A stretch of DNA of 43,148 bases from Chitinophagaceae bacterium (lineage in GTDB: Bacteria > Bacteroidota > Bacteroidia > Chitinophagales > Chitinophagaceae). The DNA lies in assembly GCA_020847395.1 (NCBI GenBank), contig JADLCD010000108.1:1-43148 (forward strand), in the 5' to 3' direction. A program made the translations under genes and the position numbers. The notes beneath the pieces were generated by a model. The model was not told the DNA's origin, searched no databases, and worked only from the letters and a program-made list of their open reading frames with translations. Positions 10,560 to 21,030 of the stretch are shown one piece after another; position 1 is the stretch's first letter, and each line of letters begins with the position of its first letter.

Positions 10560-12761
10560 ATGATTTGTGCCAAAAACTTATTGAGACAATTGCTCTCATT
10601 CATTTTCGTAATTCTTTCCATTACATGCTTTGCCCAGTATAAATCAAAGGAACTAACATGGACTGCCGACGGAACGGGTTTTTATACAAGTGAAGCAAGT
10701 ACTATCCGCCGTATTAATCCCAAAACAAAACAGCAGGATGTGCTGGCAGGCGCAGCGCAATTAACACCTGCGGGAAATAATACGCCCTTAGCCGTTTCAG
10801 ATTTTTCTTTAAGCGCGGATAATAATATCATTCTCATTTTTACCAATACAGCAAAAGTTTGGCGCTATAATACAAGAGGAGATTACTGGATATTAAACCG
10901 GCAAACAAACCAGCTCAGGCAAATAGGAAAAGATAAACCTGCACAAACGCTAATGTATGCCAAGCTGTCTCCGGATGGTAAAAAAGTGGGCTATGTAAGT
11001 GATCGTAATATTTATGTAGAAGATATTGCAACAGGCAATACCACCGCGCTTACCAAAGATGGTAACAGGCAATTGATAAACGGCACTTTTGATTGGGTAT
11101 ATGAAGAAGAATTTGGTTGCAGGGATGGTTTTAGATGGAGCGGCGACAGCAAACAGATTGCTTACTGGCAGGTAGATGCAAGACAAACCCGCGATTACCT
11201 GATGTTGAATACCACCGATTCTATTTACTCTTTTGTAATACCGGTTGAATATCCCAAAGTAGGTGAACCGCCTTCGCTTGTTAAAATAGGAATAGTAAGT
11301 GCCGAAGGCGGAGAAACAAAGTGGATGGATATTCCCGGCGATGCCCGCCAGCATTATTTACCAAGAATGGAATGGCTAAAGGATAACAGCGCGGTAATTG
11401 TGCAGCAACTGAATCGCAAACAAAATGAAAGTAAAATTTTTATATGCAACCCTTCAAGTGCTGTTGCAACAAACATATACACTGAAAATGATAAGGCATG
11501 GATAGATATAAAATCTCGCTGGAATGATGATGACCCTACAGGTTGGGATTGGATTGAGAATGGTAAATCATTTTTATGGGTGAGCGAGAAAGACGGATGG
11601 CGTCATATTTACCGTGTTACATCAGATGGTAAGAAAGAAACATTACTTACCAAAGGTGATTATGATATTGAAACCATCAGCGCTGTGGATGAAAAGAATA
11701 ATTATATTTATTTTATTGCTTCGCCACAAAGCGCTATTCAACGTTACCTGTACCGCACCAAACTGGATGGCAAAGGAAAACTGGAATTGGTTAGTCCTGA
11801 AAATTTAAAGGGCACGCACAGCTACGAAATATCACCAGGCGCACAACTTGCCATGCATTATTTCACCAATCGTAATACGCCCTATGCATATGAATGGATT
11901 AGCCTGCCAGATCACAAACCATTAAACAGCCAGGAGAGTATTGCTGCTACCATGAAACCTGTAGACAGAAAGGATATAGAGTTTTTCACCATCACTACCG
12001 AAGATAATGTAACGATGGATGGATGGATTGCCAAACCGGAAAATTTTGATCCAACAAAAAAATACCCGGTGCTATTATATGTATATGGCGAACCTGCAAG
12101 TGCCACTGTAAGCGATAATTTTTATGCCGGCAGAAACCGAATGTTCCAGGGAGATATGGGCAGGCAGGGATATTTTTATGTTTCTTTTAATAACCGTGGT
12201 ACACCTGTTTTAAAAGGAGCTGCCTGGAGAAAAAGTATTTACAGGAATATAGGTGTAATAAACATCAGGGACCAGGCGATGGCAATGAAAAAATTATTGC
12301 AGGATCGTCCTTATCTCGACACAGCAAGAGTTGCATCATGGGGTTGGAGTGGTGGCGGTTCATCAACCCTGAATTTGCTGTTTCAATATCCTGATATATT
12401 TAAAACAGGGATTGCTATTGCCGCTGTTGGCAACCAGCTTACTTATGATAATATTTACCAGGAGCGCTACATGGGGCTGCCCCAGGAGAATAAAGAAGAT
12501 TTTATTAAAGGCTCACCCATAACACATGCCAAAAACCTGCGTGGAAATTTATTATATATACATGGTACAGGTGATGATAATGTACATTATCAAAACGCTG
12601 AAATGCTGCTGAACGAATTGATTAAATACAACAGGCAATTCCAGTTTATGGCTTACCCCAATCGTACGCATAGTATAAATGAGGGTGAGGGAACAAGTAA
12701 GCATTTACAAACATTGTATACTAATTATTTGCTGAAGTATTGCCCGCCGGGGGCGAGGTAG
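10560..12761 (+). CDS. Secreted dipeptidyl-peptidase IV-type serine peptidase (S9B)
   Basis: A 733-aa prolyl-type dipeptidyl peptidase, likely periplasmic or surface-exposed. A hydrophobic signal peptide (LLSFIFVILSITCFAQ) ends near residue 26. A DPPIV N-terminal beta-propeller follows, including the DWVYEEEFG segment whose paired Glu residues bind the substrate N-terminus in DPP-IV. The C-terminal alpha/beta-hydrolase domain has the nucleophile in GWSGGG (Ser597), the acid in HGTGDDNVH (Asp672/673) and the His in NRTHSIN (His704), so the triad is complete. It would remove Xaa-Pro dipeptides from imported or extracellular peptides. It has its own terminator and no co-oriented neighbours. Confidence 0.94.
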   Translation: MICAKNLLRQLLSFIFVILSITCFAQYKSKELTWTADGTGFYTSEASTIRRINPKTKQQDVLAGAAQLTPAGNNTPLAVSDFSLSADNNIILIFTNTAKVWRYNTRGDYWILNRQTNQLRQIGKDKPAQTLMYAKLSPDGKKVGYVSDRNIYVEDIATGNTTALTKDGNRQLINGTFDWVYEEEFGCRDGFRWSGDSKQIAYWQVDARQTRDYLMLNTTDSIYSFVIPVEYPKVGEPPSLVKIGIVSAEGGETKWMDIPGDARQHYLPRMEWLKDNSAVIVQQLNRKQNESKIFICNPSSAVATNIYTENDKAWIDIKSRWNDDDPTGWDWIENGKSFLWVSEKDGWRHIYRVTSDGKKETLLTKGDYDIETISAVDEKNNYIYFIASPQSAIQRYLYRTKLDGKGKLELVSPENLKGTHSYEISPGAQLAMHYFTNRNTPYAYEWISLPDHKPLNSQESIAATMKPVDRKDIEFFTITTEDNVTMDGWIAKPENFDPTKKYPVLLYVYGEPASATVSDNFYAGRNRMFQGDMGRQGYFYVSFNNRGTPVLKGAAWRKSIYRNIGVINIRDQAMAMKKLLQDRPYLDTARVASWGWSGGGSSTLNLLFQYPDIFKTGIAIAAVGNQLTYDNIYQERYMGLPQENKEDFIKGSPITHAKNLRGNLLYIHGTGDDNVHYQNAEMLLNELIKYNRQFQFMAYPNRTHSINEGEGTSKHLQTLYTNYLLKYCPPGAR

Positions 12762-12775
12762 AATAATAATCTATT

Positions 12776-12807
12776 AGGAGGTAATTAAGCATTACCTCCT
12801 TTTTTTA
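12776..12807 (+). terminator. Intrinsic terminator of the S9 peptidase gene
   Basis: AGGAGGTAAT (12776-12785), loop TAAGC, ATTACCTCCT (12791-12800), then a T run to 12807. The right arm and T run double as the last codons and stop of the convergent caspase-subtilase gene, so the two 3' ends interlock. Confidence 0.88.
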
Positions 12808-15473
12808 TTTACATACGCCCTGGATGTAGATTTTGATTTTTTAGTTTTCACCGGCGCATCAGTTACAAGCACACTCTTCAAAAAATCAGAAGCATAAGGC
12901 GATGCTTTTATTTTATTAAAGAATTTTTCCCTTGCTGCTTTGTCCTGGAGAAATGCGCCGCCATCTGCATTTTCAAATTCAATTACCTCAGCATAATCCA
13001 TTAAGGTTTCATCCTGGTATACTACCTGCATAATCTCAAGCGAAATCATTTCATTTAAAGTTGCATCCTGTTGTGCGGATGCCGTTGCTTTACCTTTTTC
13101 TTTACTTCTTATCCATGTGCCGATAAATGGTATTATTCCAAAGAATAGTACTCTTGCTTCGCGGGAAATTTCGAGATCATTTAAATCAATATAGTTCAAT
13201 GCATCAAAAGCCCTGATAATACCATTACCATAATATTTTTTATAATAAGGATACTCCTTATTAGCGGTGGCATACATTGCCCTTCGTACTGCTTCTACTT
13301 TTTTCCAGGCATTTTTACCGGTAAACCCGCTTAGCTCATCCCTGTGATATAATAGCCATAATGCGGCGGTAGCAGCTACCTGTGGTGTGGCTGATGATGT
13401 GCCTCCCCCGGCTTTTGAAAATGCATACGGTTTATCGTACGATGCCCAGGGCACATTGGGTGTATATGCGGCAATCGCTTTATTCATTGCGCTTTCCGGT
13501 CCCCAGCTACCCTGCATAAATTCGCCGCCTTCGGAGCGGGCTTTCAGAACATCCCGTGGCGCGTCTACATCATAAGGCATATGATCATAACAGGCACCCG
13601 TAGCCGCAATTACACGGTCGAAGCGCGCCGGGTATAATACAGCTTTGGGAGAAAGTTTCCCCAGTCCCTTTACAAAATTATTTCCTGCTGCCGTTACTAC
13701 AACAACACCTTTTTCATACGCCATATTAACGGCTTTTGCCACCTCACGCGTGGGATAACCCGCCATCGACATTGTTACTACTTCACATCCATTCTCAACG
13801 GCATATTCAATACCTTTTGCCACATCATTTGCATTAAACGCGTTGAATACAGTATCGCAAATGCGTATCGGTATTACCTCTGCAAAAGGTATAGCGCCAA
13901 CATCACCACTATACCCTGCATAAGCATCTGCCGCAGAAATCGTATTGCCGGCCAGTAACGCTAATGTTGCGGTGCCATGACCATCCTGTTCTGCTATTGT
14001 GCCGGTATTCAGTTGGTCAATTCCTTTATTAATACCAAACTCATCTTTCCAGAAGCTAACGCCCATATCCTTCAATAAATTTCTTGGAATACCGGGATGC
14101 CCAGGTAAATAACCGGTGTCAACATGCCCAATGCGGATTGTTTCACCGCTTCTTTTCGCCCTTTTTAATTTTTGCTCCACTTCATCGCTTGCCTTTCTTA
14201 GTTGTGAATGCTCATCATCCAAATGCCAGATAAATTCATTGGGAGATGCCTGCGGTCTTGGCCAGTTAGCAAGATAGTTATTGGTACTGTCTCTGCTTAT
14301 TTTTATTTCCGGCTCTTTTATAAAAACAGATTTGATATCCGGTTCTACAAATACAACGGGCGCTTTTGTTTTTTTTCTGTTGAAGTATGTTTCATAGGCT
14401 TTATCCCAGGGGTGTTCTGCAGATTTTATGGTTACCTGCTCTATTTGCGGCGCTTGTATTTTAGCAGAAGATTTTGTTTTTCCTCGGCTTCCTGCTATTG
14501 ATTTTTTACCGGTATCAATCAGGAGTGTTTCTGCTTTGGGCGCCTTTTTTAGTTTTTTTTTACCTGTTGCAGAAGGCGTAAAACTGATTTTTACTTTGTC
14601 TTTTCCATCAATACTGAAAGGTGGGCAGGAGTTAAATGCAGCCAGTGGTTTACCATATATGAACAAGTTGGGTTTTTGTACTTTAGGTATTACTGAAAGA
14701 ATTTTTTTGTAGAGGCTTTTATAATTTTCCAACTCATCAAAAAGTCCGGCTTTAATTATTTTTTTCAAGGTGGCGCTGAAAATACCATTCTCGCCCAGTT
14801 CCCTGGCAGATTCATTATCCTGGCAGGCTGCAAATAGCATGACTGTAGCATTAATATCTTTCTTAAAAACAGGAGGGCGATCCTTGATAGGCTGTAATAC
14901 TTTTTCCTGCGCAGCATTTATTTTAGGCTGAATCTCCTTAGGCACAAGCCTTGAACGATACCCCAGCCTGGTGTAGGTGTTTTCTATTTCCTGCTCGGCG
15001 CGCATCTGTTCATTAAGCGCTTTATTACTGCCCGGCACAAAACGGGATACTGTTCCGGAATGACAACTATCAGAAAACATAACAATACGTACACCAGCTT
15101 TAAAATCTTTGAACGCTTCAAACAATTCATCATCTATTAACTGGCGATCATATAAGCACCATGTTTCATCCTGCAAATCATCCTCATCGCCGTTTTCGTC
15201 TGTCACTGTACCGCCATGTCCTGAATAGGAAATTAAAAAAAGGTCGCCTTCTTTTAAATCGATGGCAGCTTTTTTCAGTTCAGCCAATACATTATGGCTT
15301 GTGGCTTTTTCAGTAAGTAATGTTGTAATGTTATCAAATTTTGCCTGCGTTGCAATTGCTTTGTAAATGGCAGCATCGTTTTCACATCCAAACAATTGCC
15401 CATCCCAATTATCATATTTTTTGGGGTCAACGCCATTCAGCGCAATATGCAGGGAATATCCTTTTTGTTTCAT
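12792..15473 (-). CDS. Caspase-like (C14) / subtilisin-like (S8) double-protease fusion
   Basis: An 893-aa protein with two complete protease domains. Residues ~5-275 are a caspase/metacaspase-like domain with His86 in ISYSGHGG and Cys137 in FSDSCHSG. Residues ~290-400 form a Lys/Pro-rich linker. Residues ~445-765 are a subtilase with Asp452 (GHVDTGY), His499 (DGHGT), oxyanion Asn598 (TAAGNN) and Ser693 (GGGTSSATP). A C-terminal ~125-residue tail has a short hydrophobic stretch (VLFFGIIPFIGTWI, 775-788) and a basic end. No signal peptide is visible, so it is probably cytoplasmic, unusual for a subtilase. One domain may activate the other. It stands alone, convergent with the S9 peptidase. Role unknown; stress or defence proteolysis is speculation. 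Confidence 0.92.
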   Translation of the reverse strand: MKQKGYSLHIALNGVDPKKYDNWDGQLFGCENDAAIYKAIATQAKFDNITTLLTEKATSHNVLAELKKAAIDLKEGDLFLISYSGHGGTVTDENGDEDDLQDETWCLYDRQLIDDELFEAFKDFKAGVRIVMFSDSCHSGTVSRFVPGSNKALNEQMRAEQEIENTYTRLGYRSRLVPKEIQPKINAAQEKVLQPIKDRPPVFKKDINATVMLFAACQDNESARELGENGIFSATLKKIIKAGLFDELENYKSLYKKILSVIPKVQKPNLFIYGKPLAAFNSCPPFSIDGKDKVKISFTPSATGKKKLKKAPKAETLLIDTGKKSIAGSRGKTKSSAKIQAPQIEQVTIKSAEHPWDKAYETYFNRKKTKAPVVFVEPDIKSVFIKEPEIKISRDSTNNYLANWPRPQASPNEFIWHLDDEHSQLRKASDEVEQKLKRAKRSGETIRIGHVDTGYLPGHPGIPRNLLKDMGVSFWKDEFGINKGIDQLNTGTIAEQDGHGTATLALLAGNTISAADAYAGYSGDVGAIPFAEVIPIRICDTVFNAFNANDVAKGIEYAVENGCEVVTMSMAGYPTREVAKAVNMAYEKGVVVVTAAGNNFVKGLGKLSPKAVLYPARFDRVIAATGACYDHMPYDVDAPRDVLKARSEGGEFMQGSWGPESAMNKAIAAYTPNVPWASYDKPYAFSKAGGGTSSATPQVAATAALWLLYHRDELSGFTGKNAWKKVEAVRRAMYATANKEYPYYKKYYGNGIIRAFDALNYIDLNDLEISREARVLFFGIIPFIGTWIRSKEKGKATASAQQDATLNEMISLEIMQVVYQDETLMDYAEVIEFENADGGAFLQDKAAREKFFNKIKASPYASDFLKSVLVTDAPVKTKKSKSTSRAYVNKKRR

Positions 15474-20260: not shown

Positions 20261-20268
20261 TACATTTG
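20261..20268 (+). promoter_or_regulatory. -7 promoter box upstream of rnc
   Basis: TACATTTG matches TAnnTTTG exactly. The first in-frame TTG upstream of the conserved rnc region (20266-20268) lies inside this box, so that TTG is unlikely to be the start if the promoter is used. No -33 TTG was found at proper spacing. Confidence 0.4.
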
Positions 20269-20295
20269 CTATACATTATTAATAAAACTATAGAA

Positions 20296-21030
20296 TTGGC
20301 CTTAGTCAGGTATTTCATTCAATATCTCGGGATTGATAAAACCAATCGCTCGTTTTACAAACAATTGTGCAATGTGCTTGGATTTGCACCAGGTACTATT
20401 TCCCTCTATAAAACCGCGCTCAGTCACCGCTCTGTTAAAGAAGGTACTGATGAAAATAATGAAAGGCTTGAATACCTCGGCGATGCCATATTAAGCGGTA
20501 TCGTGGCAGACTATCTTTTCAAACGTTACCCGTATAAAGGTGAAGGCTTTCTTACAGAAATGCGGAGCAAGATGGTGAACCGCCAGACGCTGAATGAAAT
20601 AGCGGTGAAAATGGGTTTAAAGAAAATTACCATCTACAATAAAAATGACGGCTCCCTTAAAGTAAGCCAGATATTTGGTAATACGCTTGAAGCGCTTGTT
20701 GGGGCAATATATGTTGATAAAGGCTTTAACCAAACCAAGCAGTGGGTGCTTAAACAGATAATTATACCCCACATGTTTGTAGAAAACCTAGAAACACTTG
20801 AAATAAACCACAAAAACAAATTATACGGCTGGGCTAACAAAAACGGCAAAAACCTGGAGTTTGAAACTCTCGACGAAAGATTTGAAAACGGAAGAAGATT
20901 ATTTACCGTTGGCGCCGTGGTAGATGGTGAATTAATTGCAGAAGGAAAAGCCTACAATAAAAAAGATGCCAGCCAGGTAGCTTCACAAATTGCTGTTGTG
21001 AAATTAGGATTGGGGAAAGGTGAAGAGTAG
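20296..21030 (+). CDS. rnc: Ribonuclease III, non-ATG start
   Basis: A dsRNA-specific endonuclease that matures rRNA and some mRNAs. The RNase III signature NERLEYLGDAILSGIVADYLF carries the catalytic acidic residues, GNTLEALVGAIYVDKGF is the second acidic cluster, and the C-terminal ~70 residues form a dsRNA-binding domain ending KDASQVASQIAVVKLG. No ATG exists upstream of the conserved region in this frame. Candidates are TTG at 20296 (245 aa; chosen), TTG at 20266 (254 aa, but inside a -7 box) or ATT codons at 20275/20278. It follows fabF after a short gap. Confidence 0.92.
   Translation: MALVRYFIQYLGIDKTNRSFYKQLCNVLGFAPGTISLYKTALSHRSVKEGTDENNERLEYLGDAILSGIVADYLFKRYPYKGEGFLTEMRSKMVNRQTLNEIAVKMGLKKITIYNKNDGSLKVSQIFGNTLEALVGAIYVDKGFNQTKQWVLKQIIIPHMFVENLETLEINHKNKLYGWANKNGKNLEFETLDERFENGRRLFTVGAVVDGELIAEGKAYNKKDASQVASQIAVVKLGLGKGEE

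Follow-up and report, generated by a model that had tools for sequence, protein, structure and literature searches.

The 43,148-nucleotide stretch analysed here (the window; contig JADLCD010000108.1 of the Chitinophagaceae bacterium assembly GCA_020847395.1) carries a gene in which a caspase-like protease is fused to a subtilisin-like protease (Table 1). A first-pass annotation of the window had proposed this fusion within a single open reading frame (ORF), and Pfam bears it out, with both domains above their cut-offs: PF00656 (Peptidase_C14) at residues 18-258 (4.7e-15) and PF00082 (Peptidase_S8) at residues 444-751 (1.6e-22). No other Pfam domain, an EAD included, was found in the protein at E ≤ 1. 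Residues 4-288 match the solved structure 3bij (GSU0716) at 1.1e-55, or 1.4e-68 with a profile, and the S8 part matches many subtilisins in both PDB and profile searches. GSU0716 is a solo bacterial caspase-like protein and is matched nearly full length by the caspase domain; it differs in being a 285-residue chain without a subtilase domain.

Both active sites are complete, as the same annotation had stated for His86/Cys137 and for Asp452/His499/Ser693. The caspase residues lie in YSGHG and SDSCHSG, and this His-Cys dyad places the domain in peptidase family C14; the subtilase triad, in HVDTG, DGHGT and GTSSA, falls inside the S8 domain and places it in family S8. The caspase His and Cys are invariant in 21 of 21 aligned rows (12 fused proteins of full length together with nine caspases from split pairs or standing alone, counted without the contig-end fragment G128/L070, whose N terminus is missing) and in all 11 fused rows of a second alignment (A2), and the subtilase triad is invariant across 13 fused and eight unfused proteins. 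Asp33 and Asp135 are also conserved in all 11 fused rows of A2. By their motifs we equate them with Asp95 and Asp211 of TbMC2, which the available part of PMC6426788 describes as the S1-pocket pair of basic P1 specificity; since both are invariant, a preference for Lys or Arg at P1 is predicted for the caspase domain. The protein thus resembles metacaspases and orthocaspases in its His-Cys dyad and its two putative S1 aspartates, and differs from them by the attached S8 domain.

Table 1. Features of the caspase-subtilase fusion gene (window coordinates).
Feature	Position	Strand	Basis
Caspase-subtilase fusion gene	12792..15473	-	ORF, ATG start, 893 residues
Caspase domain (C14, metacaspase/orthocaspase-type), residues 1-288	14610..15473	-	3bij match, profile search
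Catalytic His86	15216..15218	-	alignment of fused and unfused caspases
Catalytic Cys137	15063..15065	-	alignment of fused and unfused caspases
Linker and conserved region before S8 domain, HPWDKAY...VVFVEPD...WHLDDEHSQL	14154..14609	-	alignment
Subtilase (S8) catalytic domain, residues 441-765	13179..14153	-	Pfam, PDB and profile matches
Catalytic Asp452	14118..14120	-	alignment, 21/21 rows
Catalytic His499	13977..13979	-	alignment, 21/21 rows
Catalytic Ser693	13395..13397	-	alignment, 21/21 rows
C-terminal region 766-869, common to fused and unfused family members	12867..13178	-	alignment
Basic C-terminal tail 870-893, 37.5% Lys+Arg	12792..12866	-	alignment, composition

The protein is intracellular in character. 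No signal peptide is visible, by eye and hydropathy rather than by a dedicated predictor, in the fusion protein or at the N termini of 18 aligned family members, in agreement with the earlier prediction; export signals in all close homologues had been named as grounds for abandoning an intracellular switch. The N terminus leaves no space for such a signal, because the 3bij alignment begins at residue 4 and N-terminal hydropathy is low, the highest 12-residue value beginning in the first 30 residues being only 0.42.

The regions flanking the subtilase are less uniform. The linker had been described as rich in Lys and Pro; its Lys content stands (25% Lys+Arg in residues 289-352), its Pro content does not (three prolines among 64 residues, counted by eye). 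Even the basicity is local, at 19-25% Lys+Arg in the three Terrimonas proteins, to which the window protein belongs, versus 9-14% in eight further fused proteins of A2, and we therefore rejected it as a general trait of the fusion. The basic tail is similarly confined to the three Terrimonas proteins and absent from the other eight. This tail, with a hydrophobic stretch, had been suggested to tether the protein: the tail is indeed basic, but the stretch (residues 767-785) has a mean Kyte-Doolittle value of 1.09, weak for a membrane helix, and membrane tethering is unsupported as no segment is strong enough. Linker sequence is not conserved. Those of L065-L068 (relatives' loci are numbered with L, genomes with G) share a KRD triplet, are otherwise divergent and all come from one genus; the triplet could be a cleavage site.

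The PWDxA, VEPD and WHLDD..SQL motifs that precede the subtilase are found in fused and unfused forms alike. We presume this region to resemble the end of a subtilase prodomain, a likeness that profile searches did not confirm: Pfam found no I9 prodomain in the fusion protein or in five unfused subtilases scanned, and a profile of the region gave no PDB match at E ≤ 10. It is possibly a degenerate prodomain. AlphaFold2, run from an alignment of three close sequences (A1), returned a predicted local distance difference test score of 33 and no usable model; the C-terminal region is predicted to be helical only in this low-confidence model.

The fusion gene is a monocistron, as first annotated, converging on an S9/DPPIV gene that ends at 12761 and diverging from a DinB_2 gene that starts at about 15643. 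An inverted repeat followed by a T-run, seen by eye at 12776-12808, overlaps its last codons and could terminate the convergent DPPIV gene. A scan of ten neighbours gave an M20 peptidase, TrmD, S4, DPPIV/S9, DinB_2, a weak Glyco_hydro_130, an unassigned 119-residue ORF, GNAT, a ketoacyl synthase and RNase III; the last (20266-21030) lies 4.8 kb from the fusion gene with several other genes between. None is a typical partner of a conflict system, and the fusion gene lies among housekeeping genes. The window genome holds one full-length copy of the fusion. It also has a second C14 gene, whose ORF start is secreted-like, and an nSTAND1 match truncated where a contig begins, both unlinked to the fusion gene.

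The search for the same architecture that the first-pass annotation had recommended found the fusion in 19 distinct genomes, at 38-90% identity and all within the window's order, through three overlapping searches. A search of the family recovered it in 13 of 394 genomes, one copy being cut at a contig end; the order search recovered it in 11 of 396, which added six genomes, five of those outside the window's family; and a phylum sample of 395 genomes held none beyond the window's own. The closest named relative, from Terrimonas sp. NS-102, is 89% identical and that of a metagenome-assembled genome 73%, both full-length. With one full-length genomic copy, these full-length relatives and 19 genomes, the fusion is more than chance: it is real and conserved. 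Internal stops had been flagged in some fused matches and were dismissed, as the ORFs read there run uninterrupted. No caspase-subtilase fusion appeared among the titles or abstract openings listed by literature searches, most subscription papers lying outside that scope.

Within the window's genus, which we take to be Terrimonas from this named relative and from the label 'same genus' on its contig, three of 12 genomes carry the fusion, two an unfused subtilase and seven neither (E ≤ 1e-10). The three fused copies all sit 3' of a conserved DPPIV gene (at a distance of about 3 kb in L011). The comparison covered eight of the nine other congeners (all but G001); these keep the DPPIV-S4 pair but show no fusion within the 1.8-9.5 kb that can be seen there. 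The fusion has been gained or lost at this locus of housekeeping genes. In trees, a single clade (99/99) unites the 13 fused subtilases, and 12 fused caspases form one group with three solo caspases nested inside it (94/91). The simplest reading is a single fusion event with later losses; one locus (L086) retains the caspase and a caspase-like partner with no subtilase adjoining.

Outside Terrimonas the fused genes (n = 16) commonly lie in clusters with further proteases, so that the monocistron of the window is a local condition. Another C14 gene, above the Pfam cut-off, is found in the adjacent cluster of 11 of the 16 (L066, L067, L069-L074 and L108-L110). Two more, L065 and L068, are accompanied only by a caspase-like gene of 352-376 residues, recognized from motifs and from BLAST similarity to L066; for the 340-376-residue partners of L065-L068 as a group the label rests on motifs, with Pfam, run on L065-L067, at E of about 0.06 in L065 and L066 and no match in L067. 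Nine clusters have a C14 protein of the caspase plus alpha/beta-hydrolase type, as judged by BLAST or N terminus; both parts are recognized by Pfam in L066, L067, L069, L073, L108 and L109, and in L071, L072 and L074 the hydrolase portion is absent or degenerate. No such neighbour was found, by motif, in L112 or beside the three Terrimonas copies. L107 has a second S8 gene beside the fusion. L111:29-4117 (+) encodes a triple fusion, C14, S8 and DUF7379 in one 1362-residue chain; DUF7379 spans a region that also matches PGAP1-type or alpha/beta hydrolases in L066 and L067.

NTPases recur in these clusters (L067, L069-L072 and L108), though some of the labels fall below cut-offs. Genes for a MoxR-like AAA+ protein and a vWA-like protein come next in L067, L069 and L070, where the MoxR-like label means AAA_5 above and bpMoxR below the cut-off, and the vWA label is just below the cut-off in L069 (VWA_CoxE), by eye in L067 and by fragment similarity in L070; the 281-residue vWA-like gene of L067 and its 340-residue partner have no Pfam match. 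Divergently oriented CHAT and nSTAND1 genes occur in L071, L072 and L108, CHAT being above the cut-off in L108 and just under it in L071, and nSTAND1 being recognized by BLAST in L072 and L108.

The association also recurs where the subtilase is unfused. Among ten such relatives (E ≤ 1e-60 in the family search, E ≤ 1e-70 in the order search), four adjoin a C14 gene and four a C25 gene. The C14 gene lies directly upstream and co-directional in L076, L077 and L113; in L075 the subtilase converges on a caspase-hydrolase gene. L113:6388-10658 (+) holds in a row a caspase-EAD11 gene, the subtilase and an Exo_endo_phos gene, and EAD11 can be linked to the adaptor domains in the available part of PMC7159879 by its Pfam name only. 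Further ORFs lie upstream of two split pairs, L077:5430-6167 (-), which has no Pfam match, and L076:128-442 (+), in which papain-like motifs are seen by eye (GGHAVVAIG..., RNSWG). In the C25 form (L083:3646-7145, also L078, L084 and L085) the subtilase is followed by a C25 peptidase with no visible export signal and by a conserved gene of 87-101 residues, which has no Pfam match in L083 and could be a regulator or inhibitor. C25 is assigned by Pfam in L078, L083 and L084, and by BLAST in L085, where the gene appears as two ORFs. Because the association recurs in fused, split and C25-partner forms, the subtilase and caspase-clan peptidases appear to act together.

As a control, 131 S8 places (split rows merged) were set against 58 C14 places in 21 family-bearing genomes. 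Non-family S8 places near C14 number 0 of 110 within 6 kb and 1 of 110 within 10 kb, the latter near the G005 fusion. Three of eight unfused family members lie within 6 kb of C14, and the 13 fused ones qualify by definition. Fisher's test gives 2e-4 for C14 proximity, a guide only, as related genomes are treated as independent and members were chosen with a fused query. The control covers C14, not C25.

Several neighbouring arrangements were seen alongside. L079:943-7585 (+) carries in a row a subtilase-trypsin fusion, SIR2_2 and an nSTAND1-FHA gene with weak TPR, which is likely a conflict system. On alphaproteobacterial plasmids, S8 proteins of 1032-1236 residues with no other Pfam match are followed by MBL-fold-like genes (L095:6259-10801, L097:5542-10783 and L099:5803-10696), the MBL-fold match being above the Pfam cut-off in L095 and below it in L097 and L099; these pairs are reminiscent of the nuclease-protease pairs in the available part of PMC12799240. 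In three genomes (L087-L089), two large genes (775-781 and 908-985 residues) lie ahead of caspase genes of 554-576 residues; the 985-residue gene has no Pfam match.

We infer a proteolytic switch inside conflict systems from the recurrence of the pairing, from both intact active sites and from the partners. We propose, with moderate confidence, that the fusion acts inside the cell as a two-protease module of the nucleoside triphosphate (NTP)-dependent conflict type, serving immunity or cell suicide, in which a caspase switch cuts the inter-domain region and frees the subtilase. The caspase domain would be an orthocaspase with the predicted Lys/Arg preference, kept as a regulated switch. Once triggered it would cut between the domains, so that the subtilase is freed or unblocked, and the freed subtilase would degrade proteins or process partner effectors, stopping the infected or stressed cell. 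Since the caspase keeps both putative S1 aspartates, the Lys/Arg-bearing linker is a conceivable site of self-cleavage. Neighbours could supply the trigger in many non-Terrimonas relatives, either a MoxR-like AAA+ protein with a vWA-like protein or nSTAND1, and the caspase plus alpha/beta-hydrolase genes may provide further effectors there. The Terrimonas protein would be a reduced, stand-alone version, whose trigger may act in trans.

This proposal has parallels in two described systems. Clusters L067, L069 and L070, which join the fusion to MoxR-like AAA+, vWA-like and further caspase genes, resemble the MoxR-vWA ternary conflict systems of Kaur et al. 2020 (PMC7159879, in its available part), and the caspase-alpha/beta hydrolases of L067 and L069 resemble the caspase and alpha/beta-hydrolase pairing there. 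The window copy differs in having no such partners alongside, and the relatives' AAA+ and vWA labels are partly below cut-offs. The available part of that paper mentions subtilisin once, within NucA-trypsin systems, and describes no caspase-subtilase fusion. In canu (PMC12799240, likewise in its available part), a caspase-family protease activates the enzyme that accompanies it; there the effector is an MBL-fold nuclease encoded by a separate gene, whereas here the subtilase is part of the caspase's own chain. That text does not contain the word subtilisin, and no MBL-fold gene is found among the ten scanned neighbours of the window copy.

A number of observations weigh against the proposal. 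NTP-dependent conflict systems are marked by an NTPase (MoxR-vWA or STAND) in the same cluster and by an EAD on a component; no NTPase, EAD or second caspase was found among the ten scanned neighbours, and the fusion protein itself has no EAD. The three Terrimonas copies stand alone among housekeeping genes and, with L107, L111 and L112, make up the six of 19 fused genes that lack a further caspase-like neighbour. In the window genome the 352-residue caspase-like partner had no match (an empty answer that proves nothing there), and the caspase-hydrolase query matched the fusion gene only. PADLOC matches were weak and generic. The unconserved linker, the restriction of its Lys-richness and of the basic tail to three Terrimonas proteins, the unusable structure model and the AAA+, vWA and CHAT labels under or near their cut-offs (with the two L067 genes that match nothing in Pfam) all count on the same side. 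Two subtilase relatives have no caspase-clan neighbour, the trypsin fusion L079 and L114, where no partner was found in a covered stretch that ends just past the gene. Of the 37 plasmid loci, seven were examined, in PLSDB gene tables that are incomplete: four subtilase loci (L095-L097 and L099; 30-37% identity) have no annotated caspase within 6 kb, and three caspase loci have no annotated subtilase, one having a C25 gene about 3.5 kb on. Given these plasmid subtilases, caspase pairing characterizes the loci examined within the window's order but does not extend to every relative. No relative of the fusion was found in viral_contigs, and, although 37 plasmid and 18 phage records matched, none covered at least 80% of the query; the fusion was seen in none of the three collections.

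A more specific form of the proposal is tentative and somewhat doubtful, namely that the Terrimonas protein is a complete one-chain cascade of initiator-type orthocaspase and executioner subtilase, a stand-alone immune or cell-suicide device that has lost its NTPase sensor, with a relative's triple fusion as the most compact form.

The reverse order, in which the subtilase is the regulator that cuts the linker or a caspase loop and the caspase is the executioner, we consider unlikely. The subtilase can serve as the proteolytic half of a protease-effector pair, because it is found without an adjacent caspase, in the trypsin fusion and upstream of the plasmid MBL-fold-like genes (of which one passes the cut-off); a protease that activates an MBL-fold nuclease has a precedent in the available part of PMC12799240, and the C25 partner genes sit downstream of the subtilase. 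However, the C14 domain is N-terminal in every fused form seen and its gene directly upstream in the co-directional split pairs, an order that is not decisive by itself, and solo caspases of the same type also occur in multi-gene clusters (L080-L082). Activation of the caspase first is favoured by this position and by analogy with canu.

It is equally improbable, in our view, that the fusion involves no cross-activation and merely holds two proteases on a common scaffold or substrate, with an external signal switching both. The split (L076, L077 and L113) and C25-partner forms indicate that covalent linkage is not required, and the unconserved linker sequence fits the same idea; but the fusion has been kept in lineages that diverged from one another, and the 13 fused subtilases in the tree fall into a single clade. 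A housekeeping or regulatory protease without a role in defence, acting in protein turnover or peptide maturation, would suit the housekeeping genes around the window copy and the NCBIfam similarities to mycosin and PatA (far below cut-offs), but is very unlikely given the patchy presence in the genus and relatives' partners typical of conflict systems.

The fusion is best seen as a variant of known caspase-containing conflict systems. Caspase-driven bacterial immunity is an active field; the available part of PMC12799240 lists bacterial caspases in type III CRISPR, gasdermin/CARD, NLR and Thoeris systems, besides the caspase-activated nuclease. As the pairing exists in fused, split and triple-fused forms and with an alternative partner, the order of activation is directly testable, and the window protein should be easy to express. 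Conserved coupling of a caspase to an unrelated protease family would be a bacterial cascade in which one protease activates another, following the logic of apoptosis, and in the window genome that cascade would be compressed into one 893-residue protein.

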